Below are positions 862-24,681 of a stretch of 24,681 nt of DNA, one piece after another. Position 1 is the first letter of the stretch, and every line of letters starts with the position of its first letter. The position numbers were made by a program, and so were the translations under genes. The stretch comes from Baffinella frigidus. Lineage: Eukaryota > Cryptophyceae > Cryptomonadales > Baffinellaceae. The stretch is taken from contig MU646810.1 in assembly GCA_026770585.1 (NCBI GenBank), positions 110,471 through 135,151 of the forward strand, read 5' to 3'. Below the pieces are notes generated by a model, which did not search any database, was not told the DNA's origin, and saw only the letters and a list, made by a program, of their open reading frames with translations.

Positions 862-3800
862 GTCCCACGCCAGAGGGCTCGAAACATTCACTTTTGGCAT
901 CTTTCAGGGGGAATTCCCTGAATCCTTAAGTCAACGACGCCAGATCTGGCGTGGATAAGGCGTCGGTTTCCCTCGAGCCCTCTGGCGTGGAGAGTAGTGC
1001 TTGCATTCCTCAATTTCCTTAGGTCCGCTGATCCTACTTCTGCCTCACTCGGGCCTCAGCCTCACTTGGGTTGACGGACTATTCTCAAGTTGACGTGCTG
1101 GGTGTGCGGTACAAATCCGACAAGTTTGGAACGGAAAACGTGAAAACGTGTGGAAGGGGAGGGTCTCCCCTTCCACACCCACTCGAGACCATAAAAGGTA
1201 CTATTTGTAAATGTGTCGCAGAGCCACGACAGAGTTTTGTACTGGAATTGCTGTACATCACCGTGTGAGACGCCCCCTTTCCGCAGCTGGGTGGTGCTGT
1301 ACACCAAAACGTGTGGGATGACTCCTTTCCGCTCGTGGGCGGTTTTTGACAATCCCGTGTGAGATGACTCCTTTTACCAGCTCAGTTGTGCTGTACACCA
1401 CCGTGGGGGTGATCGACCGTGTTCGCTTGTGTGGCCAAACCACAACTCGCGTGTGCGCCACAGCTCGCTGTACACCAATGTGTGGGGCGACTCCTTGCCG
1501 CATACAACAACGTGTGAGATGTCCCATTTCCGCAGTTCGGTGGTGCTGTACACCAAAATGTGTAAAATGACTCTTTTCCGCCCGTTGGCGGTTTCTGAAA
1601 ATAACGTGTGAGATGCCCCAGTTCCGCAGGACGGTCGTCCTCTACAACACCGTGTGTACGTCTATTATAACGTCTATACATCTCTTGTAACGTCTATACA
1701 TCTATTATGAAGCCTATACATCTATTATAACGTCTATACAACACATTTTGAGATGCCCCCGTTCTGCAGTTCGGCCGTCCTCTCTAGTGTCTAGGGTCTA
1801 GGGTCTAGGGTCTAGGGTCTAGGGTCTACGGTCCAGGGTCTCGGGTCTCGGGTCTCGGGTCTAGGGTCTACACCAAATTGGGGGTGATCGATGTGTGAGT
1901 ATACTCGCGTGTTCGATTACATTCCCGTGCGTGGTTATATTTGCGTTTTGGCCACAGTACGGTTGTGCTGTACACCACCGTGTGAGATGAATAAACCTGC
2001 TCAATTTCAAATTTGCACCACGAAAGTCTTAAGGCGGGCCCGTCCGGTCATCCTAAAGTGGAGCGATATTTTCATTAAGATGACTCCTTTCCGCAGTTCG
2101 GTGGTGCTGTACAACAACGTGGGGGTCATCGACCGCTCGGCCGTCGAAAAGCTCGCCTACGCCATCACCACCGCCTCGACAATGTCATACTTCGAACAGG
2201 TTCGGCCACTCATGCCGCAGATTTGTACCGCGAATCACTTTTAAAGCGAAGCGTTGCGTTGTGAAATCCAAATTTGTACCGCGAAACACTTTTAAGGCGA
2301 ACCGTCGCGTTGTGAAATCCCCACTTGACCGCTCGGCCGTCGAGAAGCTCGCCTGCGCTATCACCACCGCCTCCACCATGTCATACTTCGAACAGGTTCG
2401 GCCACTTCAGGCCACACACGGGGATTCGCCTAAAGTTAATTCTGGAAATTTGTACCATAAACACGCGCACCCCATACAGTGCACAGTGGGCTTCGCAGAA
2501 AATTTCGACAAGAAATCCTGTCGAAATGTCGGTCAACAAGAAGTCTTTGTACCGAGCAATTATTAATTACTACCACGAACATAAATGGACCGATCTGCGA
2601 AGCTCACTGTGTGGTGCACCATTAACCCTGGTACGATATGGGCGGGCGCAGGAGAGTCAGGAGAACGCGATCTCGAGATTTTTTTGATTCCCCGACCTCC
2701 CGACCCCGACCCAAAATCCGCGCTGACCCGAAAATTCAAGACCGACATTGAATGCGGCGCGTCGCAGGAGAGTAAGGGGAACGCGATCTCGATGATTTGT
2801 GACATAGCGTGGTATGGGGGGGTTGCAAAAATCGATGGTTTGCTCAATCTGTGAGGGTTGGTGGTACCATTAACCTCTAAACGACATTGAATGTGGCGCT
2901 CCGCAGGAGAGTAAGGAGAATGCGATCTCGCGGCCGCATCTCCTCTGGACCATCCAGAACTTCAACCATGGAACACCACGCTTTGGGGGTGTGCAGCACC
3001 CATTAACCGATACACGATATTTACCGATACACGATATTTGTTTACCATGAACCGATACACGATACTGAATATGGCGTTCCGCAGGAGAGTGAGAAAAACA
3101 CTGTGTGTGGTGCACCATTAACCGCCATCCCTTAAGTGGCGAGTAGGATCATACGCCCTACCGTAGGGCCCTAGGACCTGCCTAGGACCTCTTGGGGGGT
3201 CAAATTTGACCCTCTCGCCACTTACGGGATATGGCATGGCGCGTCGCAGGAGAGTAAGGAGAATGCGATCTCGCGGCCGCACCTCCTCTGGACCATCCAG
3301 AACTTCAACCTCCTCCTCAACTCCGGCCAGGTATTTAGGATTTTGGGTTTAGGCAGAGAGAGGCCTTGAGTACCACCACGGGGGTGAAATGATAGGGTTT
3401 AGGGTTCAGGGTTTGGGATTTAGGGTTTAGGGTTCAAAGTTTAGGGTTTAGGGTTTAGGGATTAGGGTTCAGGGTTTAGGGTTTAGGGTTTAGGGTTTAG
3501 GGTTTAGGGTTTAGGGTTTAGTGTTGAGTGTTTAGGGCACCTCCTCTGGACCATCCAGAACTTCAACCTCCTCCTCAACTCTGGCCAGGTAAACCCTCAA
3601 TCCCAAATCTGAAACCCCAAACCCTAAACACCACACCCTAAACCCTTAACCCTAAACCCTAAACCCCACACCCTAAACCCTAACCCCCAAATCCTAAACC
3701 CCACACCCTAAACCCTAAACCCGAAACCCTCCCCACCCACTTAATGTTTTGGGGTTGCAGGGGCAGGGGCCAGCGACGGGGGCGGTTGCATCATACACCC

Positions 3801-6800
3801 TACACCCCACACCCTGACTCCTGGCCCCTGACCTCTAAATCCTGAACTGAGTGTGTCTCGGACCTGATACACCCTACACCCTCACCCCAGACCCCGAAAC
3901 CCTGAACGTTTGTCTGGATCCGTGCGATGACACAAAACCCTAACCCCTAGACCCTACACCCTATACCCTAACACGCATCGCGCAATGCAGCACGCGTTGA
4001 TGGTGTCTCGGGCCTGGGGTTGCAGGGGCAGGGGCCAGCGACGGGGGCAGAGTGGATCCAGCAGCTTCTATCGCAGATCGACCACTCGAATAACGGGACA
4101 TCGACGTTTCACCATGTGAGAGCCTCATTTCGAGAATTTCGTGAATCACACACACGCGAACAATACATGGGATAGATTTCGTGAATAACCCATACGCGAA
4201 TGCTCCATAGGACCGATCGACCACTCGAATAACGGCACATCGACGTTTTACTATGTGAGAGCTACACAGTGGGCTACGCAGGGATTTCGTGAATGGCCCA
4301 TAGGCGAACAATCGATAGGACCGTACGATGATTCTAGAGGTTTGGTCGATCACTCGAATAATGGCACGTCGACGTTGCACCATGTGAGCGTCTCTTTTTC
4401 TTATTCGTACTACTAATATTAAAGCATTTGTGTGGTAATTTTCGTTGCCAGGAAAAGAACTAGGTTTCCCAGGATGAATGTGAGAGGGTGACTGGGAGGC
4501 TATCCGAGCTGTTGACTGTGATTCTAGTAGGACTAAGAGGGTGTTACGTTCCACCATGCGAGAGTGTTGAGGGGATTGACTGAGAGACTATCCTGACTGT
4601 TGGCCTCATTCCGGAGGTATGGTGGAGAATCACGCCACACGCCCACCCGCCGCATCACTGAATTTGTACCACGAAACCACCTTTTATCGAACCTCAAGAC
4701 GGTTTCGTGAATAACCCATAAGCCCTAAGCCAAAGAGAGTGAATCGCACCATCAATATCCGAAGGTTGATGGTGCGATACCTAGTTTGCCTCGTTCGGGC
4801 CAGAACACGAAACCTGAAACTTCCACAAGCGACCACACGAGGCTATCCGTGCGAACAGAATAAAAGGACTTTTTAAAATTTGTGGGGAAATGATCACGTT
4901 TCCGTACGGATGTCCGTACGGAAACGTGATCAAATGCTGACTTTTGGCGTGTTTCCAGGGCAATAATCCAATAATTAACTTATGAATCTGTTCGCATGGA
5001 TAGCCTCGTGTGGGAACCGTCGTGTGCTGAAATTCTTTCGTGTGATCTGTTGGCCTGATTCCGAAGATTTGGGGGAGAATCACGCCGCACGCCCACCCAC
5101 CGCATCTCTGTGGAATTTGTATCACGAAACCACCTTTCAGCGAACCGTCGCGTTCTGAAACCTTCTTCTTCTTCTTCTTCTTCTTCTTCTTCTTCTTCTT
5201 CTTCGTTATTACTCTCGATACAGGTCCTAAATGAGACCCTTGCGCCTTGAGTTAAGTGATACAAAAGTCTATGAGCCTTAAGAAACGGGCCCACCTCGGA
5301 AACGTGAGTGCTGATTTTTTTTTCAAAGTTGACTAATATAAAATCTTCTGGCTAGCAATGTAAAATTTTCTGGCTAGCAATGTTCTTCCGCTCGCGAGTG
5401 GAAGAAAGTTGATTCTACCCGAGAAACACGCCAACCGTGTTGGGAATTGTTGCTGTTTGCCGCCGGAGTTTTAAAAATCTGTACCACGATAAGCCATCTA
5501 AACACTTTTAGCGCGAACGAGTGTGTTTGACAATGGAACTTGTGACCTGGCGTGGTGATCAGGACTTCAACGCGTTCTTCCGCTCTCTCGGCGCGTCCTT
5601 CCTTCCTTTCCCGACAGCGTATCACCCCATGCTCTGAAACCCTCAACCAAAAACCGTTGGTAATTTATTGCCAAACAAGGTCGTTTTTTTAAACGACTTC
5701 AACTTTGTTTCTTGTCACTCGGCGCGTCATTCCTTCCTTTCTCAACAGCGTATCACCCCACGCCCTCAAACCTATCACCCCATGCCCTCAAACCCAAAAA
5801 CGTATCCAAAACCGTATCCCACAACACGACTTCAACGTTGTTTATTCTCTCTAGGCGCGTCCTTCCTTCCTTTCCTGACAGGGTTCCACCCCACCATTTA
5901 GCAGCGACAGGGGGCTTCACGGATACAGTCCATCTAAACGATTTGCACTGAAATCGTATCCCTTTGCATTGGATTCTGTCCGCATTTTCCCCGGATATCC
6001 GGGGGAAAAGGATCTCGGCCGCTGCTAAGTGGGCCCTCCGACCCTAAACCCACAACCGTATCCAAAAAAATGACCTCAACTTGGTTTCTTCTCTCTAGGC
6101 GCGTCCTTCCTTCCTTCCCCGACAGCGCACCACCCCGTGTCCTCCAACCCTAATCCCCACACCCTAAGTCAGAGCGAGTAACCCGCGGACTCGCAGGCTG
6201 GTGGACGATCTCAAGAGGCTGACCAAGCTCTGCCCGAGCGTCCCACCACCGTCGATTGCATGCGTTTCCTGGTGCTATTTCTGTCGAGGCTAGTCATTGT
6301 CCTGATAGCTAACGCGCCGCAGGCTGGTCGACGACCTCAAGAGGCTCACCAAGCCCCCGACTATTTACGTTTGGCGTGTTTCTGAAACAAAGCTGTGGGG
6401 CAACTCCTGAGAATCAACTTTAGGCATTTTTTTACTCCACCCGATGAAGCGCAGGCTGGTCGACGACCTCAAGAGGCTGACCAAGCTCCCGGTCGAGAAC
6501 CACACCCCCGCGTACAAGAAAGCCGTCGACGATCTCTCCAGCCGGTGCTGAATCCTCACCCCTCACCCTCTCCCCTAACCGCTGAGCCCTCAAAGTAGCA
6601 ATGTTGCTGCGCCGCCTCAGCCTAAACCCCGACCCTCTCCCCTAACCGCTAAAGTTATCGACGATCTCTCCAGCCGGTGCTGCACCCCAGCCTTGAAAGC
6701 AGCAACGTTGCTGCGCCGCCTCAGCCGGGTTGCTTAAGTTGACATACTGGGTCCGCGGTGCACATCCATGCTTAAGTTGATATGCTGGGTCTTCGGTACA

Positions 6801-12359: not shown

Positions 12360-12407
<48 letters not shown>

Positions 12408-18400: not shown

Positions 18401-19690
18401 AAGGGAAATGCCTTGAATTCGACACGGTCAGTCCGAGCAGTGCCACCGTCAAGTTGCCAGCCTTAAAACCATGATTTTGATGGTGAAATTCAATTTCGCC
18501 GTCGGCCAAGGCCAATTTGGCCCTTTGATTGCCAATCCTCGCCATGGCGGGGAGGAGGCTCGCCAATCGTTCCTACGAAACATTGCATCAGGGGTCAGGG
18601 TTCAGGGTTCAGCGTGTAGGGTTACCGTTGCGGCCACACATGCCGGATCGCGCCCCTCCGGGTTTCGGGTTTTGGGATCCAGGGTGCTTCCTCTGGAAGC
18701 AGGCTTCCGCTCTCTGGCAGAATGCTGAATTTTTCAAGAGCCTGAAGGGTGTGTTTGTCAAGAACATACCTGAGCTTTAATTTGCTTCGGTTGGTATTTC
18801 CATCATACGATTCTAGAAGGCGCTAGCGCTGCAGCGGAACCTGGAACACGCCGGCACCCTGAGGCTCGGGTCGGATGGTTTATTTGCCAAGAGCATGTAT
18901 GGTTCATTTGTCAAAAACATAGAGCGATTCCGGGAAATGTTGGCGGCTTTGTGAATTGCTGATTTGCCGGTTTGCTGATTTTATTTGTACCACAATTCTC
19001 GGAACGGTGCTTTTTGAAAGGACGTGAAACGTTGTTTATGGTACAAATGAAATCAACAAATCATCAAATCAGCAAAAAAAAAAGCGGCCAACATTTCCCG
19101 GAATCGCTCTGACTGATTTTTAATTTGCTTTGATTTGTGCTTTCATGCGATTGCGCGATCCGCGCAACCCCAATCCCTCAACCATAAACCTTACAACCGT
19201 AAACCCTAATCCCTACACCCTAACCCCTCACCCCTTAACCCCAAACTCTCAGCCCTCAACCCTCATGTTTCGCAGGAGCGGTTGGCGTCGGTTTAGGGTT
19301 TAGGGTTTAGGGTCAAGAGCATGCATGGTGTATTTGTTAAAAGCATCCTGCACCCTGGATCCCGAAACCCGAAACCCGGAGGGGCGCGATCTCATCCCGC
19401 CAGGTATTTGTTTTAAATGGTTGGGAGTTCCCCGAATACATGAAATTTACCACACAATTGGTCACGTCCAGGGCTGGACAAGACTGATTTGGCCAATTGT
19501 GTAGTAAATTTCGTTGATTCGGGGAACTCCCAAGCATTTAAATCAAATACCTGGCGGGATTAGATCCGGCATGTGTGGCCGGAACGGTAACCCTACACGC
19601 TGAACCCTGCACCCTGACCCTCGGCTCTCAATCCTCAACCCGCATGTTCTACAGGAGCGGTCAGCAGAAGCAGGCGGAACACGCTGCACC

Positions 19691-19771
<81 letters not shown>

Positions 19772-21139
19772 ACCCTGACCTCTGATGCAATGTTTCGCAG
19801 GAGCGATTGGCGTCGCGTGGCGCGATCCACGGAGTGCAGAAACAGGCGGAAGATGAACTGCGTCTTCTCGCCGGTGTCGAGGAAGCGGTCTTGTCCTTCA
19901 ATAACTCACTTTTAGGGGGTTTATTACTATTTTTTGTACCAGAAATCTTTTATATGGACGCCTTGCGAAATATAAGGGCGATCCACGGAGTTTAGAAACA
20001 GGCGGAAGATGAACTGCGTCTCCTCGCCGGTGTCGATGAAGCGGTCTTGTCCCTCAATAACTCACTTTGAGGAATTTAAAATACCTAGTTTTGTACGAGA
20101 AATACTTTAGATGGACGCCTTGCGAAATAGAAGGGCGGTACTCAGAGTGCAGAAACAGGCGGAAGATGAACTGCGTCTTCTCGCTGGGGTCGAGGAAGCG
20201 GTCTCGTCCCTCAATCACTGTCTGTTCGGATTGTGTTCCCTTAATCGGGGGAAGCAGCCTCATAACCCTCAACCCTAACCCTGAACCCGAAACCCGAAAC
20301 CCGAAACCCGAAACCCTAAATCCTAAACCCTAAACCCTAATCCCTCAACCCTAAAACCTAGTCCCTCAACCCTGAAAACTAAACCCTAAACCCTAGACCC
20401 TAAACCCAGGCGCGGAGACACTCAGCGGTCTTATCGTTCGTGGGATGTATTGCGCTGCTCAAGCTTCCGGTTAGAATCCATGGACGCTCCACTTTAATAC
20501 TGTTATTGTAGAATTCGGGTTGGCTTGGATTCGGGGTCGGGCAACTCCAAATCCCAGATTGTTTTGTGAGATGACTGGCTTAAATGAAGTTTTATGCTAT
20601 CTCCTGCATGAGATTGATGACAAGATCGCGACCCCCACCCATAAGATGACACAAAACGGCGCGTTTTCGTCAGATTTCCGCCCGATCCGACCCTGAAAAA
20701 ATCCAAGCCAACCCGAATTCTACAATAGGAAGTTTTTTGGATGCCCACGTCACTACGATGACGTTTGTTGGATACCCGATTTACTATGCTGACGTTGATT
20801 GGATGCCCGTTTTACTATCATGAAGTTTGTTGGGCTGCTCAAGCTTCCGGTTCGAACCCACCGACCCACCCACGCTTTACTTTGCTCTTTGTTGGATTTT
20901 TTGAGTTCATTTGTGGTAGGCTTAGACGTTTGGATCCCTCATCTCCAGGCAAGCGAGTAATGAAGCAGAAGAAAGAAGAAGGTTGTACGTGCTTCACAGA
21001 TGCAGCATGCGGGTTCAGGAGACGTGTGGCCTCTCTGGGCCCACTAGCCCTTGTAAGATGATGGCACCCTCGACAGGTGGAGGCAGCGGCGATCGGCGCG
21101 TGTGAGAAGGAGGCCCAGATGCTGTGCCGCGACGCCCAG
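809..21139 (+). CDS. Split gene for a GBP/atlastin-type large GTPase, 20 exons, both ends missing
   Basis: Twenty exons with GT/AG borders and mutually compatible phases join to 1542 nt, 514 codons without a stop. In order the product shows an LLSS..LYNN.G.ID segment (about residues 15-30), LLWTIQNF (about 65-72), FF...L..P (about 114-126), a stretch of the form K-T-I-G-D-M-K-L-T-G-T-R-L-A-E-L (166-181) followed by VRKWAEGIN, and long helical segments to the end. This order and spacing match guanylate-binding proteins, GTPases of the dynamin superfamily that bind membranes and assemble on GTP binding. That part is family knowledge; the role in this organism is unknown. The P-loop, switch and DTEG motifs should lie 5' of residue 1 and are not seen. 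Coding density is about 7.6 percent. Most exons have partial copies in the neighbouring introns, so it could also be a decaying pseudogene. Exon borders are inferred by eye, without transcripts. Confidence 0.75.
865..990. mobile_element. 126-bp inverted-repeat element next to the exon 1 donor
   Basis: Perfect 18-bp arms (865-882 and 973-990) enclose two smaller palindromes, TCAGGG/CCCTGA at 905-921 and the 16-bp palindrome at 937-952. It starts three bases after the donor GT. A related segment, from CTCGAAACAT to the AATTC, lies at 18373-18420 inside a copy of the exon 18 region and is flanked there by CGACACGGT on both sides. Confidence 0.6.
1038..1130. repeat. Dispersed AGTTGACRYGCTGG element, copy 1
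   Basis: Contains CTATTCTCAAGTTGACGTGC and GTACAAATCCGACAAGTT. The same block is present inverted at 24105-24200 and 13474-13528, and in shorter form at 6728-6815 and 24564-24644. Its two ends (AGTTGAC and GTCAACTT) are complementary, so a full copy is palindromic. Confidence 0.6.
1148..1178. repeat. Perfect 13-bp hairpin
   Basis: GTGTGGAAGGGGA and its exact complement are separated by five bases. No gene is next to it on either side that would make it a terminator, and in an intron it may simply be a remnant of a larger inverted repeat. Confidence 0.6.
1658..1742. repeat. 20-bp tandem repeat (ACGTCTATACATCTATTATA)
   Basis: About four to five units with few substitutions, interrupting the exon 2 junction array. 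No coding sense. Confidence 0.75.
1783..1872. repeat. GTCTAGG heptamer array
   Basis: About twelve 7-bp units, first GTCTAGG, then GTCTCGG. It keeps the 7-bp period of the telomere-like arrays but with a different sequence. Confidence 0.85.
2097..2199 (+). CDS. GBP-like gene, exon 2 (LYNN.GVID segment)
   Basis: The acceptor is the CTCCTTTCCGCAG tract ending at 2096 and the donor GT is at 2200. The single first base completes Ser, then 34 codons follow, beginning SVVLYNNVGVIDRSAVEKLA and ending MSYFEQ, phase 0. GBPs have SS.FVYNS.G.I....LD.L at this place, so the match is specific: S-S, aromatic-Asn, Gly, Ile-Asp and a following helix. The 3' two thirds is repeated at 2327-2395 with its donor, and the 5' end is repeated about eight times upstream. 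Confidence 0.8.
2219..2326. repeat. Tandem pair of a 51-bp TTTGTACCGCGAA element
   Basis: Two copies (about 2220-2270 and 2271-2320) run ATTTGTACCGCGAA...GTTGTGAAATCC. Related single copies are at 4667-4712, 5111-5160 and 5467-5530. The pair lies exactly between exon 2 and its partial copy. Confidence 0.7.
2327..2395 (+). pseudogene. 3' echo of exon 2 with donor
   Basis: Reads DRSAVEKLACAITTASTMSY then FEQ, followed by the same GTTCGG donor as exon 2. It lacks the exon start and any acceptor at the right place. Differences from exon 2 are mostly silent (one Tyr to Cys). Confidence 0.7.
2652..3110 (+). pseudogene. Four 5' echoes of exon 3
   Basis: Acceptor CGCAG plus GAGAGTAAGGAGAA-type exon starts at 2652, 2768, 2907 and 3085. 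The 2907 copy runs through LLWTIQNFN before diverging; the others break after 10 to 35 nt. Between them are short GTACCATTAACC and CGATACACGATA repeats. Open frames on the minus strand here are shadows. Confidence 0.7.
3127..3230. mobile_element. 104-bp MITE-like element, ATCCCTTAAGTGGCGAG termini, copy 1
   Basis: 17-bp terminal inverted repeats (one mismatch) at 3127-3143 and 3214-3230, with a GC-rich core containing CCCTACCGTAGGGCCCTAGG. A near-identical copy is at 14263-14365. It has no coding capacity. Confidence 0.75.
3250..3330 (+). CDS. GBP-like gene, exon 3 (G4 region, Arg-Asp replaced by Gln-Asn)
   Basis: The acceptor CGTCGCAG ends at 3249 and the donor GTATTT starts at 3331. There are 27 codons, phase 0 to 0, reading ESKENAISRPHLLWTIQNF and then NLLLNSGQ. 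In GBPs and atlastins the strand FVWT(L/V)RDF carries the guanine-recognition Arg-Asp. Here the same strand is LLWTIQNF, with Gln at 3298-3300 and Asn at 3301-3303. The partial copies at 2907-2966 and 3538-3588 carry the same Gln-Asn codons, so the change predates the duplications. Confidence 0.8.
3376..3535. repeat. TTTAGGG array, forward orientation
   Basis: About 20 units, with a run of perfect copies at 3461-3520. It is followed at 3538-3588 by a 3' echo of exon 3 (HLLWTIQNFNLLLNSGQ with donor GTAAAC) and then by CCCTAAA units in the opposite orientation. Confidence 0.9.
3538..3588 (+). pseudogene. 3' echo of exon 3 between opposed telomere-like arrays
   Basis: Seventeen codons of exon 3 with one silent change (TCC to TCT) and a GT donor. 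It starts directly at a TTTAGGG unit and ends in a donor followed by CCCTCAA and CCCTAAA units. Confidence 0.75.
3590..3960. repeat. CCCTAAA-type array with 5' echo of exon 4
   Basis: Degenerate CCCTAAA, CCCCACA and CCCTACA heptamers. A 24-nt echo of the exon 4 acceptor end (TTGCAG then GGGCAGGGGCCAGCGACGGG) is at 3755-3784. Confidence 0.8.
4026..4115 (+). CDS. GBP-like gene, exon 4
   Basis: The acceptor GGTTGCAG ends at 4025 and the donor GTGAG starts at 4116. There are 30 codons, phase 0 to 0, encoding GQGPATG followed by AEWIQQLLSQIDHSNNGTST and FHH. It occupies the place of the GBP segment after WT.RDF, where a Gly-rich turn is followed by a helix usually reading EYLE..L; Trp-Ile replaces Tyr-Leu. 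A different start at the internal AG (4049-4050) would run into a stop, so 4026 is preferred. Its 5' end is copied at 3761-3784 and its 3' end at 4215-4254, 4345-4383 and 4546-4557. Confidence 0.75.
4116..4390 (+). pseudogene. 3' echoes of exon 4 in a 43-bp repeat
   Basis: Copies of IDHSNNGTSTF-YHH at 4215-4254 and 4345-4383, each followed by GTGAG. A shorter one at 4546-4557 has GC in place of the donor GT. Between them ATTTCGTGAATNNCCCATA-type units recur three times. The long minus-strand frame across this region is only the antisense of these copies. Confidence 0.7.
4400..4450. mobile_element. Partial GTGTAGTAAATTTCRTTG element
   Basis: Right-hand part (ACTAATATTAAAGCATTTGTGTGGTAATTTTCGTTGCCA, positions 4410-4450) of the family whose fuller copies are at 7699-7809, 12661-12737, 19392-19562 and 22395-22507. 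The left arm is missing. Confidence 0.5.
4833..5013. mobile_element. 181-bp inverted-repeat element with a perfect central hairpin
   Basis: 27-bp terminal arms (4833-4859 and 4987-5013) with one mismatch. In the centre is an exact 20-bp inverted repeat (4891-4910 and 4913-4932) with a 2-base loop. The termini match the element at 305-477. Confidence 0.75.
5162..5204. repeat. (TTC)14 microsatellite
   Basis: An uninterrupted trinucleotide tract. It gives an artefactual poly-Glu frame on the minus strand. Confidence 0.95.
5205..5310. repeat. Dispersed GATACAGGTCCTAA...GAAACGTGAG element
   Basis: Homologous to 23067-23155 and, with an internal insertion, to 14107-14262. Shared blocks are GGTCCTAA, GAGTTAAGTGATACAA, GTCTATGAGCC and AAGAAACGGGCC. 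Function unknown. Confidence 0.6.
5563..5618 (+). CDS. GBP-like gene, exon 5 (FF...L..P segment)
   Basis: The acceptor GTGATCAG ends at 5562 and the donor GTATCA starts at 5619. It has 18 codons, DFNAFFRSLGASFLPFPT, plus two bases (GC) that make Ala with exon 6. GBPs have FFP.R.CF.L.RP here; the spacing of FF, L and P is kept but the Arg-x-Cys core is RSLGA. Phase fits both neighbours exactly, which is the main support. Three further copies (5694, 5828 and 6072) carry indels or a stop, so this first copy is taken as the functional one. Confidence 0.6.
5694..6126 (+). pseudogene. Three degenerate copies of exon 5
   Basis: Copies begin at 5694, 5828 and 6072, each with GACTTCAAC or a variant, GGCGCGTCMTTCCTTCC and ACAGC. 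All are about 55 nt; the copy at 5828 has an in-frame TAG and the others have shifted frames. The repeated pyrimidine tract ends in CAG and could act as a false acceptor. CCCTCAA-like text lies between the copies. Confidence 0.65.
5894..6033. mobile_element. TAGCAGC-family inverted-repeat element, copy 1
   Basis: Ends TTTAGCAGCGAC and GCCGCTGCTAAGTGG, with the shared subterminal GGATACAGTCCATCTAAACG and a CCCCGGATATCCGGGGG palindrome. Other copies: 7120-7213, 16965-17098, 18239-18340, 23456-23560 and 23618-23706. Confidence 0.65.
6197..6356 (+). pseudogene. Two 5' echoes of exon 6
   Basis: LVDDLKRLTK with CGCAG acceptors at 6197-6230 and 6323-6356. Both break within the Lys-Leu/Pro codons. 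They have no donor in register. Confidence 0.7.
6455..6544 (+). CDS. GBP-like gene, exon 6 (start of helical domain)
   Basis: The acceptor AAGCGCAG ends at 6454 and the donor GTGCTG starts at 6545. The first base completes Ala, then 29 codons run LVDDLKRLTKLPVENHTPAY and KKAVDDLSS, leaving CG for an Arg completed by exon 7. In GBPs the corresponding stretch is RPV.....L..L.....L.PEF...V..., with a short helix, a Leu-Pro turn and a second helix. Reading past the donor gives Cys and a stop. Two truncated copies with the same acceptor lie at 6197-6230 and 6323-6356, and the donor end is repeated at 6654-6676. Confidence 0.75.
6545..6730. repeat. Duplicated exon 6 donor and intron start
   Basis: The segment from ATCGACGATCTCTCCAGCCG plus donor through TTGCTGCGCCGCCTCAGCC is present at about 6526-6620 and again at 6654-6730. 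Confidence 0.65.
6880..7335. repeat. Duplicated acceptor region of exon 7 with palindromic CCTACGG element
   Basis: CCCTACGGCCTACCGT...AACTACCCG...GTGGCAGGATCT occurs at 6900-6986 and 7283-7340, the second leading into exon 7. Between them lie a block shared inverted with 23305-23345 (GGAGGTGGAGATAGAATCCA) and a TAGCAGC-family element at 7120-7213. Confidence 0.6.
7336..7405 (+). CDS. GBP-like gene, exon 7 (K-T-I-G-..-L-T-G segment)
   Basis: The acceptor TTTGTGGCAG ends at 7335 and the donor GTAAGC starts at 7406, the only donor in the gene close to the textbook consensus. The first base completes Arg, then 23 codons read ISHLSSAKTIGDMKLTGTRL and AEL. GBPs carry S..KT..GG..V.GP.LE.LV at this point, one of the most conserved parts of the helical domain. 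This exon was the clearest key to the family. The donor end is copied at 7569-7586, also followed by GTAAGC. Confidence 0.85.
7406..7680. repeat. Degenerate CCCTAAA heptamers and donor echo of exon 7
   Basis: Heptamer-derived sequence with an 18-nt copy of the exon 7 end and its GTAAGCC donor at 7569-7593. Confidence 0.7.
7699..7809. mobile_element. 111-bp GTGTAGTAAATTTCRTTG-family MITE
   Basis: Arms begin TATTAATTAATTGC and end GCAATTAATTAATA, and continue inward through CAACGAAAATTACTACAC and GTGTAGTAAATTTCGTTACG. There is no coding capacity. It sits in the intron before exon 8. Confidence 0.75.
7825..8424. repeat. CCCTAAA-type array, reverse orientation, with exon 8 echo
   Basis: About 80 degenerate units (CCCTAAA, CCTAAAA, CCCTGAA, CCCTAAC). 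The echo of exon 8 with its acceptor is at 8252-8280. The array runs directly into the exon 8 acceptor. Confidence 0.85.
8425..8464 (+). CDS. GBP-like gene, exon 8 (40 nt)
   Basis: The acceptor AACCAG ends at 8424 and the donor GTGCGG starts at 8465. Thirteen codons, VRKWAEGINVPIN, leave one base (G) to form Asp with exon 9. It continues the GBP pattern LV..YV.AIN....P. An echo at 8252-8280 has the same acceptor and the first nine codons before it breaks into heptamer repeats. Confidence 0.75.
8467..8815. repeat. TTTAGGG array in opposite orientation with TTTATGG block
   Basis: Starts two bases after the exon 8 donor. It contains perfect TTTAGGG runs (8672-8718, 8734-8769) and a distinct run of TTTATGG units at 8518-8600. 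The orientation is opposite to the arrays on either side. Confidence 0.9.
8880..9284. repeat. CCCTAAA units and degenerate echoes of exon 9
   Basis: Contains the duplicated block GCTTGCATCTCAAGTCTGAA...GGCAGAC (8952-8986 and 9190-9232), the exon 9 start echo at 8985-9005, a GAATTCACGCGCCCACCCT direct repeat at 9109-9152, and heptamers between. Confidence 0.65.
9285..9337 (+). CDS. GBP-like gene, exon 9
   Basis: The acceptor TCCTGCAG ends at 9284 and the donor GTGAAT starts at 9338. Two bases complete Asp, then 17 codons read FKANSAQELLEHILRRE. In GBPs the helix after AI.....P.....A reads A.A.IENS.A...A, compatible with this amphipathic helix. Degenerate copies of the 5' part lie at 8985-9005 (with a GGCAG acceptor) and 9179-9201. 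Confidence 0.65.
9340..9625. repeat. CCCTAAA/CCCTACA array between exons 9 and 10
   Basis: About 40 heptamer units running from just after the exon 9 donor to the exon 10 acceptor; the acceptor CAG itself follows an ACCCT-type unit. Confidence 0.9.
9626..9667 (+). CDS. GBP-like gene, exon 10 (42 nt)
   Basis: The acceptor ACCCAG ends at 9625, directly after heptamer repeats, and the donor GTCTTT starts at 9668. Fourteen codons, VARASLRYVQLMQE, phase 0 to 0, match the GBP helix A...Y...M. Its donor end is repeated six or more times downstream in the same intron. Confidence 0.7.
9668..10374 (+). repeat. Donor echoes of exon 10 in heptamer repeats
   Basis: Copies of the exon 10 end (CAGCTYATGCAGGAG) at about 9740-9769, 9790-9799, 9876-9894, 9916-9925, 10030-10051 and 10132-10147, several followed by GT and one by GC. 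TTTAGG- and CCCTGAA-type units fill the rest. Confidence 0.7.
10375..10455 (+). CDS. GBP-like gene, exon 11
   Basis: The acceptor AACCCAG ends at 10374 and the donor GTCTGT starts at 10456. There are 27 codons, phase 0 to 0: VRPPMLEKDLLAKHEEALAL then TTKGHSK. GBPs have a Pro-containing turn then a helix of the form LP...L...H....A.A.F here, so PPMLEKDLLAKHEEAL fits well. Four more copies follow within 760 bp. Confidence 0.75.
10593..11270 (+). repeat. Tandem array of exon 11 copies plus TTATTAATTAGTACCAC element
   Basis: Copies of LEKDLLAKHE.ALTTKGHSK end at 10674, 10855, 11057 and 11208, spaced about 150-200 bp apart. All but the last two keep AAG before GTCTG; the last has ACG. Each is separated by a unit with TCTTTGTACCGAGCAGTTAT and TAATTAGTACCACG. 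The same element is at 2541-2600 and inverted at 12013-12075. Extra exons here would be 63-81 nt and mostly in frame, but few have AG acceptors. Confidence 0.75.
11271..11640. other. Intron sequence, few features
   Basis: Contains a small inverted repeat CCCTAATT/AATTAGGG at 11395-11418. The stretch GTCCTAATTAACCTTCGTCC is found inverted near 14518-14540. I see no exon here. Confidence 0.5.
11652..12012. repeat. Direct duplication of a 150-bp hairpin-forming unit
   Basis: Two copies, 11652-11797 and 11865-12012. Each contains inverted arms of about 32 bp (for example 11719-11750 and 11763-11797) built of CTGCTGG and CCAGCAG with the core GGCACTGCTGGCTCAG. Echoes of the exon 12 start (GTCGTCGAAGGCGCACG) flank them in opposite orientations at 11632-11648 and 11846-11862. 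Confidence 0.7.
12277..12340 (+). CDS. GBP-like gene, exon 12
   Basis: The acceptor ATGTGGCAG ends at 12276 and the donor GTCTCT starts at 12341. Twenty-one codons, SSKAHGNFVTVLRQGVSYII then D, leave G for a Gly completed by exon 13. An alternative donor at 12320 has the same phase and would drop GVSYIID, so two isoforms are possible. The 3' end is repeated at 12455-12471 beyond a CTGT tract. Partial copies of the 5' part lie at 11633-11655 and 12149-12175. Confidence 0.6.
12359..12458. repeat. (CTGT)n/(CT)n microsatellite between duplicated exon 12 ends
   Basis: About 15 CTGT units and then CT-rich sequence, bounded on both sides by the 22-bp segment TCAGCTACATCATCGACGGTCT. The pyrimidine tract ends in CTCAG, so it forms an acceptor-like site in front of the second copy. 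Confidence 0.9.
12530..12609 (+). pseudogene. 5' echo of exon 13
   Basis: Same GCAG acceptor and GGATGCTGCAAGACAACCGG start as exon 13, but with a deletion of a few bases after CGGCA that shifts the frame. It ends at CCTCGATCGC. Confidence 0.7.
12661..12737. mobile_element. 77-bp GTGTAGTAAATTTCRTTG-family MITE before exon 13
   Basis: Arms CAATGAAATTTACTACAC (12664-12681) and GTGTAGTGATTTTCATTG (12715-12732). The right end lies 12 bp from the exon 13 start, so the element supplies the end of the intron and part of its pyrimidine-rich tract. Confidence 0.7.
12745..12863 (+). CDS. GBP-like gene, exon 13
   Basis: The acceptor AATGCAG ends at 12744, a few bases after an inverted-repeat element, and the donor GTCCGC starts at 12864. 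Two bases complete Gly, then 39 codons follow: MLQDNRHFVASGIRLLEEKV, then NASIASIFTLAVNASDTLA. The LL.EKV..SI pattern resembles the GBP segment C..LL...F..LE..V. Frame choice rests on phase with exons 12 and 14 and on residue composition. Diverged copies lie at 12530-12609, 13027-13081 and 13338-13432. Confidence 0.65.
12864..13560 (+). repeat. Echoes of exon 13 and its donor region
   Basis: SIASIF.LAVNASDTLA recurs at 13027-13081 with GTCC donor. A more diverged KVNAS-TS.FTLA.NAS copy is at 13381-13432. The donor-side text GCGGTCCGCGCCCC recurs at 12861, 13164 and 13537. A 38-bp tandem pair (ACTTTACAGAGGGA) is at 13087-13163, and a 9-bp hairpin GGTCTCCTC/GAGGAGACC at 13265-13287. Confidence 0.65.
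13561..13926. other. Intron before exon 14
   Basis: Contains repeated ACTCGCACGT/TTTACACTCGCAC text, CCTAAAC heptamer remnants, and a short 5' echo of exon 14 at 13789 (TAAAACAG then GCGGCGTGG). Confidence 0.5.
13927..13977 (+). CDS. GBP-like gene, exon 14
   Basis: The acceptor TAAAACAG ends at 13926 and the donor GTGCGC starts at 13978. Seventeen codons, AVSEGEAQVLRALEEGA, phase 0 to 0, sit where GBPs have GGY.L....L..L. A 5' echo with the same TAAAACAG acceptor is at 13789, and a 3' echo with its donor is at 14370-14399. Confidence 0.6.
14263..14365. mobile_element. 103-bp MITE-like element, ATCCCTTAAGTGGCGAG termini, copy 2
   Basis: Nearly identical to 3127-3230, including CCTAGGACCTGCCTAGGACC. 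TA is present at both outer edges (GTATCCC and GGGATAC), which could be a target duplication. It lies directly before a 3' echo of exon 14 (14370-14399). Confidence 0.75.
14460..14640. other. Intron sequence before the exon 15 array
   Basis: Apart from GGGACGAAGGTTGATTAGGG, shared inverted with 11405-11430, I see nothing here. Confidence 0.4.
14664..15115 (+). repeat. Tandem echoes of exon 15
   Basis: Copies begin at 14693, 14806, 14961 and 15056, each with the GCCGAGCAACCTGAGTCTGG or a reduced form and ATGCG..ATGAAGCTG. The inter-copy text GACGTGTTCTGATTG.TGGG also repeats. All are interrupted by stops or deletions. A later partial copy is at 15626-15655. Confidence 0.7.
15189..15283 (+). 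CDS. GBP-like gene, exon 15
   Basis: The acceptor GGTGGCAG ends at 15188 and the donor GTTGCT starts at 15284. There are 31 codons, RPSNLSLAEADPTAMREVKL then RIEGGIDSWKA, leaving AG for an Arg completed by exon 16. In GBPs a P.kG..A.E.L..FL segment lies here, compatible with the LAEADPTAM helix. At least four earlier and one later partial copies lie between 14693 and 15655. This last tandem copy is the only one whose reading frame continues to a donor in the right phase. Confidence 0.65.
15490..15620. repeat. Dispersed TCAATAGGAGGTTGAATAGG element, copy 1
   Basis: Shares CAGTTCATTTTCAATAGRAG, TTAATTAGGCGTCCTA and GGGAACTAATTCAGTTATC with 16146-16225. An inverted relative is at 24255-24340. 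No coding sense. Confidence 0.65.
15660..16065. repeat. CCCTAAA-type array before exon 16a
   Basis: About 55 heptamers, including a CCGTAAA run at 16017-16040. An acceptor-side echo of exon 16 (CCGGCAG then GGCGTTCAAGGCGC) is at 15944-15964. Confidence 0.9.
16071..16125 (+). CDS. GBP-like gene, exon 16a
   Basis: The acceptor ATTCGACAG ends at 16070 and the donor GTACCT starts at 16126. One base completes Arg, then 18 codons read AFKAQALRLSKQELARCG, phase 0 at the end. Exon 16b at 16260 has the same length and splice phases. Because 55 is not a multiple of three, joining both would shift the frame. Confidence 0.65.
16260..16314 (+). CDS. GBP-like gene, exon 16b (alternative twin)
   Basis: The acceptor ATGCGGCAG ends at 16259 and the donor GTGCCT starts at 16315. 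One base completes a split codon (AG plus G, Arg), then AFKAHALRLSKQELARCG follows. It differs from 16a by one residue (His for Gln) and several silent changes, which suggests selection on the protein or a recent copy. A third, truncated acceptor-side copy starts at 15951. It is not counted in the 514-codon total. Confidence 0.5.
16319..16600. repeat. CCCTAAA array after exon 16b
   Basis: About 38 units, many perfect, starting four bases after the exon 16b donor. Confidence 0.95.
16601..16964. other. Intron sequence, nothing recognised
   Basis: A short direct repeat, GTATTCAAAAGTCAA, occurs at 16661 and 16691. No exon was seen. Confidence 0.4.
16965..17098. mobile_element. 134-bp TAGCAGC-family MITE, complete copy
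   Basis: 16-bp terminal inverted repeats CCACTTAGCAGCGACC and GGTGGCTGCTAAGTGG (one mismatch). Inside are a CCCCCGGATTTCCGGGGG palindrome and GGACTGTATCCGTGAAG. It ends 17 bp before an echo of exon 17. Confidence 0.8.
17115..17199 (+). pseudogene. 5' echo of exon 17
   Basis: CTAG acceptor and ELADLTTLEGIAPAHPHAPA then GSSPAAGK and a stop. It lacks the longer linker. The 200-bp spacing from exon 17 suggests a tandem duplication. Confidence 0.7.
17317..17490 (+). CDS. GBP-like gene, exon 17 (helix plus Gly/Ser/Pro-rich linker)
   Basis: The acceptor CCTTGCTAG ends at 17316 and the donor GTCACT starts at 17491. Fifty-eight codons, phase 0: ELADLTTLAGIAAQPHAP, then a linker with three units related to GSSPxEK (17375-17428), ending GGELDAR. 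The low-complexity linker has no counterpart I know in GBPs, and its 3' limit is uncertain. An echo at 17115-17199 repeats the acceptor and first 28 codons and then meets a stop. Confidence 0.55.
17491..17822. other. Intron after exon 17
   Basis: Short tandem units TTGCTTTACACNCRC (17510-17570) and CCNCCAAACCGCGC (17604-17650). Heptamer remnants precede the exon 18 acceptor. Confidence 0.5.
17823..17897 (+). CDS. GBP-like gene, exon 18
   Basis: The acceptor GGAACCAG ends at 17822 and the donor GTCAGT starts at 17898. There are 25 codons, phase 0 to 0: GREKAEACFHKALAALQKSL and GHADT. It is Ala/Lys/Glu-rich and probably helical. Copies of its second half occur as possible extra exons at 18180-18221 and 18820-18868. 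Confidence 0.6.
17891..18546. repeat. Duplicated exon 18 donor and downstream intron
   Basis: CGACACGGTCAGTCCGAG through GTCGGCCAA.GYCAATTTGG and CATCCTCGCCA is present at 17891-18003 and 18420-18546. Between the copies are a 26-bp unit repeated three times (18070-18146, TCAAGAACACACATTGTGAT), exon 18b and a TAGCAGC-family element. Confidence 0.7.
18180..18221 (+). CDS. Possible extra exon 18b (tandem copy)
   Basis: The acceptor TTCTAGCAG ends at 18179 and the donor GTTAGC starts at 18222. Fourteen codons, ALAALQKSLGHADT, are identical at the protein level to the end of exon 18. At 42 nt and phase 0 to 0, its inclusion would add one heptad-like repeat without shifting the frame. Whether it is spliced in is unknown. 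Confidence 0.4.
18559..18687 (-). repeat. Inverted copy of the intron before exon 19 (empty-site paralogue)
   Basis: Its reverse complement matches 19349-19391, then 19563-19618, then 19771-19812, including the ATGCAATGTTTCG acceptor region and the first bases of exon 19. It lacks both the MITE at 19392 and the CAACCCT array at 19681, so it preserves an earlier state of the locus. Confidence 0.75.
18820..18868 (+). pseudogene. Diverged third copy of exon 18
   Basis: Preceded by the same TACGATTCTAG-type intron end as exon 18b (here TTCTAGAAG), it reads ALALQRNLEHAGTL and then RL. It keeps the exon 18 pattern but has lost one Ala codon and has several replacements. The GT near 18870 is not in a clearly matching phase. 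It is likely a decaying copy. Confidence 0.4.
18921..19110. mobile_element. 190-bp long-hairpin element
   Basis: Termini AGAGCGATTCCGGGAAATGT and its exact complement, with arms continuing imperfectly through GCTGATTTG and TTTGTACCA to the centre. No coding capacity. Confidence 0.75.
19276..19290 (+). pseudogene. Acceptor echo of exon 19 ending in TTTAGGG
   Basis: ATGTTTCGCAG then ERLAS, followed at once by GTTTAGGG units. At 15 nt and phase 0 it would be a legal micro-exon, but an echo is more likely. Confidence 0.5.
19392..19562. mobile_element. 171-bp MITE with GATC target duplication
   Basis: Arms of about 70 bp with roughly eight mismatches begin TCATCCCGCCAGGTATTTG and end CAAATACCTGGCGGGATTA. 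The centre has a GTCCAG/CTGGAC hairpin. GATC flanks both sides (19388-19391 and 19563-19566). The paralogous inverted copy has a single GATC at 18646-18649. The inner part belongs to the GTGTAGTAAATTTCRTTG family. Confidence 0.8.
19684..19775. repeat. (CAACCCT)13 array
   Basis: Thirteen perfect heptamers, placed right after a deleted echo of exon 19 (19655-19683). The same unit forms the array at 1-121. Confidence 0.95.
19801..19887 (+). CDS. GBP-like gene, exon 19
   Basis: The acceptor ATGTTTCGCAG ends at 19800 and the donor GTCTTG starts at 19888. There are 29 codons, phase 0 to 0: ERLASRGAIHGVQKQAEDEL then RLLAGVEEA, a charged, probably coiled-coil helix typical of GBP C-terminal regions. 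The first five codons also occur behind the same acceptor at 19276-19290. A deleted version starts at 19655. Two 3' copies follow at 19978-20043 and 20134-20200. Confidence 0.65.
19888..20225 (+). repeat. Two tandem 3' copies of exon 19
   Basis: KQAEDELRLLAGVEEA with GTCT donors at 19996-20043 and 20153-20200, in units of about 155 bp that also repeat TTTTGTACNAGAAAT and ATGGACGCCTTGCGAAATA. In the first copy the codon before KQAED is TAG instead of CAG. Confidence 0.75.
20265..20410. repeat. CCCTAAA and CCCGAAA heptamer array
   Basis: About 20 units, with five CCCGAAA units in a row at 20284-20318, another variant keeping the 7-bp period. Confidence 0.9.
20504..20727. mobile_element. 224-bp element with perfect 28-bp terminal inverted repeats
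   Basis: Ends TATTGTAGAATTCGGGTTGG and its complement, 28 bp exact on each side. Internally there is no open frame of note. Flanking text GCTGCTCAAGCTTCCGGTT is present on the left at 20454 and again to the right at 20834, so the insertion lies inside a duplicated segment. Confidence 0.8.
20738..20838. repeat. Three 36-bp units (TTGGATRCCCGWTTTACTAT)
   Basis: Imperfect tandem copies right of the preceding element. Confidence 0.65.
21077..21139 (+). CDS. GBP-like gene, exon 20 (last one seen)
   Basis: The acceptor CTCGACAG ends at 21076 and the donor GTTCCG starts at 21140. Twenty-one codons, phase 0 to 0: VEAAAIGACEKEAQMLCRDA then Q, a further Ala/Glu-rich helix. Its 3' end recurs at 21249-21278 (with GT) and 21388-21419 (GT changed to GC). 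No later exon or stop codon was recognised, so the gene probably continues beyond the window. Confidence 0.6.
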
Positions 21140-21248
21140 GTTCCGTCCCCCCTTATCATCCTACACCAGGCCTGACCACGGGACCCTGCGGTGGTCCCAG
21201 GGTGGTATGCGGGTGCTGGAGAATCTTCTACGCATACAGAGCTAGAGG

Positions 21249-21419
21249 GATGCCCAGATGCTGTGCCGCGACGCCCAGGTGCCTTCCGAGCGCACGTTTG
21301 GGCGCCACACAACCCCAAAAGTAGAGCAACCCCCCTCAGTCCTTCCGGAGAATTGACTTTTGGCGAACCCTTCCAAGAATCTGGCGTGGAGGCCCAGATG
21401 CTGTGCCGCGACGCCCAGG
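21249..21419 (+). pseudogene. Two 3' echoes of exon 20
   Basis: GCCCAGATGCTGTGCCGCGA and CGCCCAG at 21249-21278 (followed by GT) and 21388-21419 (followed by GC). The minus-strand frame across them is their antisense. Confidence 0.75.
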
Positions 21420-21739
21420 CCCCTTGTCCCATTGGGGTTCAAAAAGCAATTTAGTTGCCCTGTTGTGCTGGAAGTTGTGATCCGAATGTGTTTTATGGCG
21501 AGCTAGAAGGCACCTCTAGCTCTGCAAAGAGCAGAAATCCAGTTAAAATAGGCGAATAGAAAGCCTTTAGGACGAGCCATGACAAAACTCAGGCAGGGAT
21601 AGGCCTTCTAGCTCTGCCTGCGTAGACGCTTTTCCTTCACGCCAGATTCTTGGAAGGGTTCGCCAAAAGTCAATTCCCCGGAAGGACTGAATGGGATCAT
21701 TTACTTTTGGGATAGTTCGGCGCCCAAACGTGCGCTCGG
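21287..21739. repeat. Inverted duplication of a 100-bp segment
   Basis: 21287-21389 and 21638-21739 are inverted copies with scattered differences. Shared blocks include CCGAGCGCACGTTTGGGCG, CAGTCCTTCCGG, TTGACTTTTGGCGAACCC and TTCCAAGAATCTGGCGTG. One arm abuts the exon 20 echo at 21388. Confidence 0.75.
21498..21620. repeat. Dispersed AGAGCAGAAAT...GGACGAGCCA element
   Basis: GCGAATAGAAAGCCTTTRGG and GACGAGCCA also occur at 22952-23023. It is flanked here by GCTAGAAGG and TCTAGCTCTGCCTGCGTAGA repeats that recur at 21607, 21780 and 21909. Confidence 0.6.
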
Positions 21740-21813
21740 AAAGAACGCCCCCCCCCTGAGCAATCTGGCGTGGTTCTATCTCTGCCTGCGTAGAAGCTTT
21801 TCTTGGAAAAGCT

Positions 21814-21994: not shown

Positions 21995-22150
21995 TGTGCG
22001 GGGCGACTCAATTTAAACCGTGTTTTTGCTGTCTTGGGATGAATTTTCTTGTATATTAAAGCTATGTCGAAGCTAATATAGCAAAATAAGAGAGCCACCA
22101 CCCTTAAGATAGCATAATAAAAGGCGGTTTAAATTGAGTCGCCCCGCACA
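21995..22150. mobile_element. 156-bp element with perfect 26-bp terminal inverted repeats
   Basis: Ends TGTGCGGGGCGACTCAATTT and its complement. The interior AGCTAATATAGCA...CACCCTTAAGATAGCA resembles the inside of 24427-24488. No coding capacity. Confidence 0.85.
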
Positions 22151-22394: not shown

Positions 22395-22507
22395 AACAAG
22401 TATTTTTCTTTTAAAAACTCAGCACGAAAACTACTACACGATTGCTTCGGAAGTGACCCGTTGTGTAGTAATTTTCATTGCCAGCTTTTAAAAGATAAAC
22501 ACTTGTT
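22395..22507. mobile_element. GTGTAGTAAATTTCRTTG-family MITE
   Basis: Arms AACAAGTATTTTTCTTTTAA and its imperfect complement, continuing through ACTACTACACG and CGTTGTGTAGTAATTTTCAT. Confidence 0.7.
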
Positions 22508-24563: not shown

Positions 24564-24681
24564 AAGTTGACACGCTGGATGTTTGGTACACATTCGTCAA
24601 CTTTGGAGACGTAGATTTGTATCGAACATCCAGCGTGTCAACTTTACACATTCGTCAACTTTGGAGACGTAGATTTGTATC
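24564..24681. repeat. Perfect 20-bp inverted repeat plus 36-bp direct repeat at window end
   Basis: AAGTTGACACGCTGGATGTT at 24564-24583 and its complement at 24625-24644. The 36-bp segment at 24588-24623 is repeated exactly at 24646-24681 and may continue past the edge. Confidence 0.8.

Follow-up and report, generated by a model that had tools for sequence, protein, structure and literature searches.

The locus raises the question of why the introns of one gene hold truncated copies of its own exons, most of which retain a splice junction, and what kind of process would leave them there. The analysis covered the whole 24,681-nt stretch of DNA from Baffinella frigidus (the window), and all coordinates are positions within it.

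Host gene

The window contains a guanylate-binding-protein-like gene (PF02263) for which 21 exons were modelled, from 809-861 to 21077-21139, giving a single open frame of 520 aa with GT at 21/21 donors and AG at 21/21 acceptors. The GBP domain was recognized in the first-draft model with E=5.1e-9. The PF02263 match scored 36.1 bits against a cut-off of 21.1 over positions 95-262 of 264, GBP1 structures were matched with a best E=4.3e-8, and the protein was 32-43% identical to three relatives. Since two extra exons of 20-25 nt in the first-draft model are absent from the relatives, they were removed. The P-loop of the GTPase domain would be expected upstream of exon E1, beyond the modelled part. 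A tRNA scan and an Rfam scan at the gathering cut-off returned no match.

Partial copies of exons

The modelled exons were used as BLAST queries against the whole window on both strands (exon-only BLAST). On the plus strand, acceptor-side rows numbered 17, donor-side rows 22, and whole-exon and internal rows 3 each, which with a single internal row on the minus strand made 46 non-self rows. All 46 rows sit between the parent exon and the next modelled exon or, for the last exon E23, just downstream. Eighteen exons have BLAST rows and E7 was added from other searches, including queries centred on the splice junctions, bringing the exons with adjoining truncated copies to 19 of 21. The sequence-only reading, according to which almost every exon has partial copies keeping one junction, is thereby borne out, with 39 of the 46 rows one-sided. 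For E1 and E22 no copies were found by exon-only BLAST of the whole window on both strands or by the junction-centred queries. The features are listed below, with exons taken from the gene model and the search given in brackets (BLAST, exon-only BLAST; JQ, junction-centred queries).

809-861, +, exon E1, starts NRAPIFDAQLLAVLNLL
2097-2199, +, exon E2, intact parent
1268-1317, 1362-1419, 1517-1556, 1611-1654, 1952-1982, +, E2 acceptor-side copies, all upstream (BLAST, JQ)
near 1770, +, E2 acceptor-side copy, weaker
2327-2395, +, E2 donor-side copy, 69 nt of exon, 93% (BLAST)
3250-3330, +, exon E3, intact parent
at 2652, 2768, 2907 (2647-2967), +, E3 acceptor-side copies (BLAST, JQ)
3537-3588, +, E3 donor-side copy, 52 nt, 98%, behind a heptamer tract (BLAST)
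4026-4115, +, exon E4, intact parent
3761-3783, +, E4 acceptor-side copy, 23 nt, 100% (BLAST)
at 4215, 4346 (4215-4383), +, E4 donor-side copies (BLAST)
5563-5618, +, exon E5, intact parent
at 5715 (donor side), 5828 and 6072 (exon-wide), within 5715-6126, +, E5 copies (BLAST)
6455-6544, +, exon E6, intact parent
at 6197, 6323 (6197-6359), +, E6 acceptor-side copies (BLAST)
6658-6676, +, E6 donor-side copy, 19 nt, 100% (BLAST)
7336-7405, +, exon E7, intact parent
7570-7601, +, E7 donor-side copy, 18 nt of exon and 14 nt of intron (JQ)
8425-8464, +, exon E8, intact parent
8227-8279, +, E8 acceptor-side copy, 28 nt of exon (100%) and 25 nt of intron (BLAST, JQ)
9285-9337, +, exon E11, intact parent
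9161-9202, +, E11 acceptor-side copy (BLAST, JQ)
9626-9667, +, exon E12, intact parent
at 9741, 10023 (9741-10147), +, E12 donor-side copies (BLAST)
near 9866, 10133, +, E12 donor-side copies, weak (by eye)
10375-10455, +, exon E13, intact parent
at 10606, 10793, 10989, 11167 (10606-11206), +, E13 donor-side copies (BLAST)
12277-12340, +, exon E14, intact parent
12455-12472, +, E14 donor-side copy, after a GTCT/CT microsatellite (BLAST)
12745-12863, +, exon E15, intact parent
12530-12605, +, E15 acceptor-side copy, 80 nt of exon (BLAST)
13030-13082, +, E15 donor-side copy (BLAST, JQ)
13361-13429, +, E15 internal copy (BLAST, JQ)
13532-13579, +, E15 donor copy with a long intron part (BLAST, JQ)
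13927-13977, +, exon E16, intact parent
14372-14399, +, E16 donor-side copy (BLAST)
15189-15283, +, exon E17, intact parent
at 14694, 14807, 15057 (14694-15106), +, E17 acceptor-side copies (BLAST, JQ)
at 14962, +, E17 further copy
at 15627, +, E17 internal copy, downstream
16260-16314, +, exon E18, intact parent
16072-16125, +, E18 exon-wide copy (BLAST, JQ)
15945-15962, +, E18 acceptor-side copy, short (BLAST, JQ)
17317-17490, +, exon E19, intact parent
17115-17185, +, E19 acceptor-side copy (BLAST)
17823-17897, +, exon E20, intact parent
at 18002, 18178, 18811 (18002-18857), +, E20 donor-side copies (BLAST, JQ)
at 18420, +, E20 copy with a long intron part
18694-18715, -, E20 internal copy, the sole minus-strand BLAST row
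19801-19887, +, exon E21, intact parent
19265-19289, +, E21 acceptor-side copy (JQ)
at 19978, 20145 (19978-20200), +, E21 donor-side copies (BLAST)
20410-20427, +, exon E22, 18 nt, doubtful
21077-21139, +, exon E23, last exon modelled
at 21244, 21388 (21244-21418), +, E23 donor-side copies (BLAST)

In exon-only BLAST, identity between copy and parent ranges from 74% to 100%. The duplicated segments are ~20-100 nt long; the exonic part has a median of 37.5 nt and the intronic part a median of 8 nt (40 copies, two of which carry no intron). At the 25 exon-side breakpoints listed, the similarity breaks off abruptly, and little homology was seen by eye at the joins. Without exception, the 17 acceptor-side copies from exon-only BLAST are upstream of their intact parent and the 22 donor-side copies downstream of theirs, in direct orientation. 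The geometry of duplication in place thus holds for 39/39 one-sided copies (p ~4e-12 if independent), and for 44/45 of the copies found to cross a junction by the junction-centred queries (p ~3e-12 if independent), the exception being an acceptor-crossing copy of E5 downstream of E5.

Spacers between copies

The 47 spacers between consecutive copies have a median length of 113 nt, and the shift from copy to copy has a median of 140 nt (sd 41, n=46). A nucleosome-sized period was considered and rejected; the shift is merely suggestive of one, and spacing within a series is no tighter than shuffled (p=0.22). Spacers are mutually unrelated in the E6, E20 and E23 series, as is the first E13 spacer relative to the other three. 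Relatedness was seen among the spacers of E21, of E4, of most E12 pairs and of the later E13 copies, and in part among those of E2, E3, E5 and E17, which indicates that some copies arose as tandem units without new filler. A single mobile element was rejected as the source of the spacers, several of the 11 series with at least two spacers having no shared sequence. The share of spacer bases with a match at another place in the window is no higher than for other intron (12.6% versus 12.8%), and no common end motif was found by eye.

The introns are rich in telomere-type heptamer arrays (TTTAGGG-like) and the window in simple repeats. In Chromera, passages of PMC4501334 describe large introns and numerous low-complexity repeats. 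The suggestion that copies often stop at a heptamer was not upheld, since a heptamer word lies within 21 nt of 6/40 exon-side breakpoints compared with 27% of random intron windows.

Enrichment at exon edges

A cruder, earlier circular-shift test of strict junction coverage gave 21/42 junctions, a value reached by 8% of shifts and not significant, in our opinion because shifted junctions also land on copies. Exons and copies were therefore kept out of the control intron positions for the junction-centred queries, which were symmetric (±60 nt) with simple repeats masked. Direct local copies crossed 25/42 junctions (45 copies) versus 74/337 controls (94 copies), with a Fisher p=1.1e-6, or 1.5e-4 when control counts were scaled down six-fold for overlap. 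This comparison of exon ends with intron positions, proposed in the sequence-only reading as a check, thus came out in its favour, in contrast to the circular-shift test. The exonic part exceeded the intronic part in 42/45 copies (14:1). Enrichment was weak in two classes of base composition: above 0.60 GC, 46% of 13 junctions were hit versus 39% of 23 controls, and at 0.48-0.54 GC, 1/4 junctions versus 20% of 99 controls. Part of the exon bias may therefore track base composition.

The strongest competitor, though rather improbable, is random local tandem duplication under purifying selection with no exon bias, in which exon copies stand out because their conserved parent is recognizable. Such duplication accounts for most of the arrangement, as 85-90% of simulated crossing copies fell on the expected side in five settings (44/45 observed), and direct local duplications unrelated to exons do exist, 19 pairs being listed, some outside the gene. 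Two of the listed pairs (1609 and 9760) are copy-copy pairs of E2 and E12. The excess of copies at junctions was not reproduced in the settings simulated. The observed ratio of copies at junctions to controls is 3.8, with 1.07 copies per junction and 22% of controls hit, whereas ten position-uniform simulation settings gave ratios of 0.44-1.07. Nine of these, including high turnover, gave 0.54-1.07 and an exonic-to-intronic excess of at most 3.5:1 (7 versus 2), although copies in the high-turnover runs were much sparser than in the window (at 3-13% of junctions). The excess is also equally strong at ≥90% identity (17/42 junctions versus 27/337 controls). Junction enrichment and the mostly exonic segments exceed what ordinary duplication with selection yields. 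A further set approached the observed values only when duplication was centred on exons at 10x and 20x; the copy ratios were then 3.3 and 7.1, copies with more exon than intron numbered 166:25 and 281:18, and there were 0.57 and 0.90 copies per junction with 15% and 11% of controls hit; the splice protection assumed in this set was looser (5 nt) than in the nine uniform settings (12 and 6 nt). All simulations used simple assumed rates, and no setting reproduced every number.

Proposed origin of the copies

The results are best explained if the copies were left by duplications that recur in place, straddle exon edges, arise by break repair and are biased toward exons, a reading to which we assign a probability of about 0.6; the bias was observed in one gene and may be peculiar to it. 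A segment of ~20-100 nt at an exon edge would be converted to two copies separated by a spacer of ~110 nt, and the event would be tolerated only if one exon copy and its splice sites remained whole. That need would place acceptor-side relics upstream and donor-side relics downstream of the working exon. The left-over copy would then drift like intron DNA. The likeliest chemistry would be break repair, in which the overhangs left by two staggered nicks are filled in, so that the intervening stretch is doubled, and the ends are then joined with filler DNA. Such events would start in exons ~10-20x more often than in introns, a bias required to reach the copy density seen and the preponderance of exon in the segments. 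This preference for exons may stem from chromatin, base composition or exon-limited RNA:DNA hybrids. A bolder and less probable version is an exon-aimed mutational process in which staggered breaks would be an order of magnitude commoner in exons, for example through exon nucleosomes or hybrids of spliced mRNA with the gene that end at exon borders; each repair would double an exon edge and add ~140 nt, so that introns would grow outward from exons as a layered record of breaks.

The sequence-only reading had proposed a local process such as break repair or replication slippage. A local DNA process acting in the same orientation agrees with the 39/39 geometry and with the absence of inverted local crossing copies at junctions in the junction-centred queries (0/42 versus 50/337 controls). 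Spacers, unrelated in several series, separate the copies, which makes plain replication slippage a poorer fit.

Decay and possible function of the copies

Differences between copy and parent number 45/42/100 at the three codon positions. The synonymous share (88/187) compares with expectations of 27% for random change and 42% for a constrained parent with a free copy (p=0.21 versus 42%); codon constraint on the copies is thus unnecessary overall, and they have decayed without clear constraint. It seems improbable that the copies are functional as decoy splice sites or alternative exons under selection, although several observations point that way. Differences are mostly synonymous in the E13 copy at 10606 (6/7) and the E18 copy at 16072 (5/6), and a third-position excess remains in copy-copy comparisons (0.142/0.134/0.218); some copies may therefore once have been exons. 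AG is retained in 15/17 copies and GT in 18/23, about the ~82% expected by our arithmetic from a mismatch of 9.5% per site. Copy-copy identity is 0.835 in exon-derived sequence and 0.841 in flanks, a comparison biased by extension of the flanks only while similar. Tandem exon duplication can yield mutually exclusive exons, which the exon-wide copies of E18 and E5 resemble, and that of E18 is a candidate from its sequence; in contrast to such exons, 39/46 rows are truncated on one side and only 3/46 are exon-wide.

Copying from RNA, by retroposition or cDNA-templated repair, would account for the exon preference but is very improbable, since the median copy includes 8 nt of intron, the upstream and downstream arrangement is unexpected of pasted copies, and no spliced exon-exon copy was found when 20 exon pairs were checked without gaps over 24 nt. 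The best match in that check (20/24, E1-E2 at 1524) is ascribed to the E2 acceptor copy there. The earlier dismissal of retroposition is therefore sustained. Assembly error or collapsed alleles, conceivable in a window full of simple repeats, deserves still less credence, as 74-100% identity with a third-position excess marks sequences that have long evolved apart under coding constraint.

Relation to known processes

It had also been claimed that no named system produces such copies. For the geometry this is too strong, as break repair is known to make small tandem duplications, which under purifying selection must end up in this arrangement; for the exon bias the claim stands, and we know of no precedent for a strong exon bias of local duplications. 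Patch-mediated repair of double-strand breaks, attributed to Schiml et al. 2016, reportedly produces small tandem duplications by fill-in of staggered breaks. Among the literature matches listed, which are part of the matching papers, none appeared to describe copies of exon edges like these. In wild-type mouse cells, tandem duplications were 60.9% of the repair products of breaks with 43-bp 3' overhangs, according to passages of PMC8355091. The likeness to patch-mediated repair, as far as those passages describe it, is that some tens of nucleotides are duplicated directly and locally with parent and copy in place; the ~110 nt spacers and the concentration on exons are absent from the same passages.

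Introner elements, as described in passages of PMC7789003 and PMC9860276, are ~100 nt of DNA inserted in genes, in repeat families that become introns, with direct repeats of 3-9 bp (3-5 nt in Amoebophrya). The present spacers are likewise ~100 nt lying within a gene between direct repeats, but many are unlike one another, the duplicated segment measures ~20-100 nt rather than being a 3-9 bp target duplication, no intron is made, and within the window no related sequence recurs across many introns. Intron gain by tandem genomic duplication of a split-gene stretch (PMC4974935) is alike in what is duplicated; there a new intron results, whereas here existing junctions are copied and apparently unused. 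Interstitial telomeric repeats are inserted at breaks (PMC7215372), and telomere-type heptamer arrays occur here as well, but copies end at heptamers no more than by chance.

Implications

False splice sites beside real exons may mislead gene finders and calls of alternative splicing. If general, the exon bias would represent an unrecognized source of mutation aimed at exons. If it extends genome-wide, introns would be a readable record of exon breaks, lengthened from their ends by the process, and the genome would offer a natural test of whether chromatin, base composition or RNA:DNA hybrids cause the fragility of exons.

The split gene

A split gene with GT-AG intron ends throughout lies on the + strand of the window, and its product matches the guanylate-binding-protein domain PF02263. 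The 21 modelled exons (designated E1-E23, with E9 and E10 absent) were picked by eye, then checked as a single open frame, and the gene model was aligned with three relatives. The alignment backs E1-E12 and, weakly, E13; E14-E23, the C-terminal half, were placed by open frame, phase and splice signals, and the assignment of E22 (18 nt) as an exon is doubtful. The exons are short (64% GC; median length 70 nt) and the introns long (51% GC; median length 906 nt). Telomere-type heptamer words stand immediately 5' of at least 5 of the 21 acceptors (E11, E12, E13, E16 and E22); the branch point could also be served by CTAAC.

Location of the exon copies

Each exon sequence alone was searched against the entire window on both strands. 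The search returned 46 non-self rows: 17 acceptor-side (exon start, truncated inside the exon), 22 donor-side (exon end), 3 exon-covering and 4 internal, with one of the internal rows on the minus strand. The 39 one-sided rows bear out the sequence-only reading that exons have truncated copies keeping one splice junction. Each of the 46 rows falls in the interval separating its parent, or intact exon, from a neighbouring modelled exon or, for the last exon, shortly beyond its 3' end. Every acceptor-side row (17/17) is upstream of its parent and every donor-side row (22/22) downstream, a rule also followed by the E1-E13 subset (12/12 and 12/12) and by 44 of 45 copies found with queries extending 60 nt to both sides of each junction.

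In-place doubling across a donor would leave a whole exon as the first copy and, deeper in the intron, a shortened exon end plus donor as the second, with the mirror image at an acceptor, while doublings within an exon would disrupt the protein and be lost. Copies pasted freely nearby would land on both sides of the parent. Judged from this sequence pattern, the side rule favours duplication in place, with selection as the filter, over retroposition, in agreement with the local process proposed earlier.

Copied segments and spacers

The copied segment has a median exon part of 37.5 nt and intron part of 8 nt (40 copies), values from an exon-anchored search that favours the exon; in the symmetric junction-centred search the exon part was the longer in 42 of 45 copies. 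Spacers between consecutive copies of one exon have a median of 113 nt (n = 47; 10-90% range 78-165) and the copy-to-copy shift a median of 140 nt (46 values), both compiled by hand and including some weak copies outside the exon-only rows. Relatedness was assessed in the 11 series of this hand-compiled set with at least two spacers, trimmed at exon-derived ends such that the shared intron end of the segment counts as spacer. Spacers of the E6, E20 and E23 series are unrelated to each other, and the first E13 spacer is unrelated to its three successors. Relatedness holds in the E4 and E21 series, in most pairs of the E12 series and among the later E13 spacers, and is partial in the E2, E3, E5 and E17 series.

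Decay of the copies

Copy-versus-parent differences at codon positions 1/2/3 number 45/42/100, and 88 of the 187 are synonymous, where random change predicts 27% and constraint on the parent alone 42%; rows from the same exon are non-independent in these counts. With E7 added by hand, AG is present in 15 of 17 copies and GT in 18 of 23, with GC in 2 more. Identity between copies (39 pairs) is 0.835 in exon-derived columns and 0.841 in extended flanks, the latter inflated because extension ends where similarity ends. The third-position excess persists between copies (0.142/0.134/0.218), which can reflect silent parent changes between copying times or copies that were formerly exons. Overall the copies look unconstrained from their sequences, with possible exceptions in an E13 copy (10606) and an E18 copy (16072). 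Two exon-wide E18 versions, 16072-16125 and 16260-16314, are separated by 6 differences, of which 5 are synonymous; they are possibly mutually exclusive exons.

Other repeats in the window

5886-6032, 7123-7217, 16965-17098, 18240-18281, 23448-23555 and 23616-23705, both strands: dispersed family of CACTTAGCAGC..CCATTGCCCTGG type, probably a mobile element
7696-7812, 19388-19566, 21995-22150, 22395-22507 and 24564-24644, minus-strand self matches: long imperfect hairpins, perhaps MITEs
1-126, 3393-3730, 7824-8811, 9344-9623, 15668-16051, 16318-16588 and 19688-19776: degenerate telomere-type heptamer tracts
21219-21392 and 21634-21802: arms of a 175-base inverted repeat, the first containing a copy of the E23 end
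11651-11797 and 11865-12013: 149-bp intron duplication (93% identity), unrelated to any modelled exon

Heptamer words occur 89 (CCCTAAA), 38 (TTTAGGG) and 53 (CCCTCAA) times. The + strand of the whole window has 15 occurrences of TTTGTACC, where 0.4 are expected; by eye, this word was seen within several repeats otherwise unlike each other.

Exon bias

The association with exon ends held when junctions were compared with intron positions that kept a distance of 60 nt or more from every exon and listed copy, 3,536 bases being masked as simple repeats. In this one gene and window, local direct copies cross 25 of 42 junctions (14/22 in E1-E13) versus 74 of 337 control positions, the latter forming 22 separate clusters. 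The counts were 17/42 versus 27/337 for copies of at least 90% identity and 10/42 versus 18/337 at 92%. By GC content, junctions and controls with copies were 3/3 versus 18% of 111 (0.40-0.48), 1/4 versus 20% of 99 (0.48-0.54), 68% of 22 versus 24% of 86 (0.54-0.60) and 46% of 13 versus 39% of 23 (>0.60). Circular shifts gave no significant result for strict junction coverage (21/42, reached by 8% of shifts), we think because shifted junctions also land on copies.

Genes were simulated under random local duplication, filler, insertion, deletion and purifying selection. The junction/control copy ratio was 0.54-0.90 (five settings, 12 runs each) and 0.55-1.07 (four settings, 8 runs each), against an observed 3.8. 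In a further set (8 runs each), segments and spacers were given lengths like those observed; here uniform events gave a ratio of 0.44 and a longer exon or intron part in 12:11 copies (observed 42:3). Exon-centred events 4, 10 and 20 times as frequent gave 1.66 (67:17), 3.30 (166:25) and 7.06 (281:18). Uniform settings fail, whereas exon-biased settings approach the data, none matching every number.

Proposed mechanism

A staggered break followed by fill-in and end joining would double the stretch between the two nicks, and the spacer would be filler DNA. In mouse cells such duplication is described chiefly at 3' overhangs, with 5' overhangs giving 9.8% of products, in an account that also mentions natural insertions in humans and plants (PMC8355091). 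The contrast in GC between exons and introns may be part of what aims breaks at exons; nucleosomes and hybrids involving spliced mRNA are other candidate causes.
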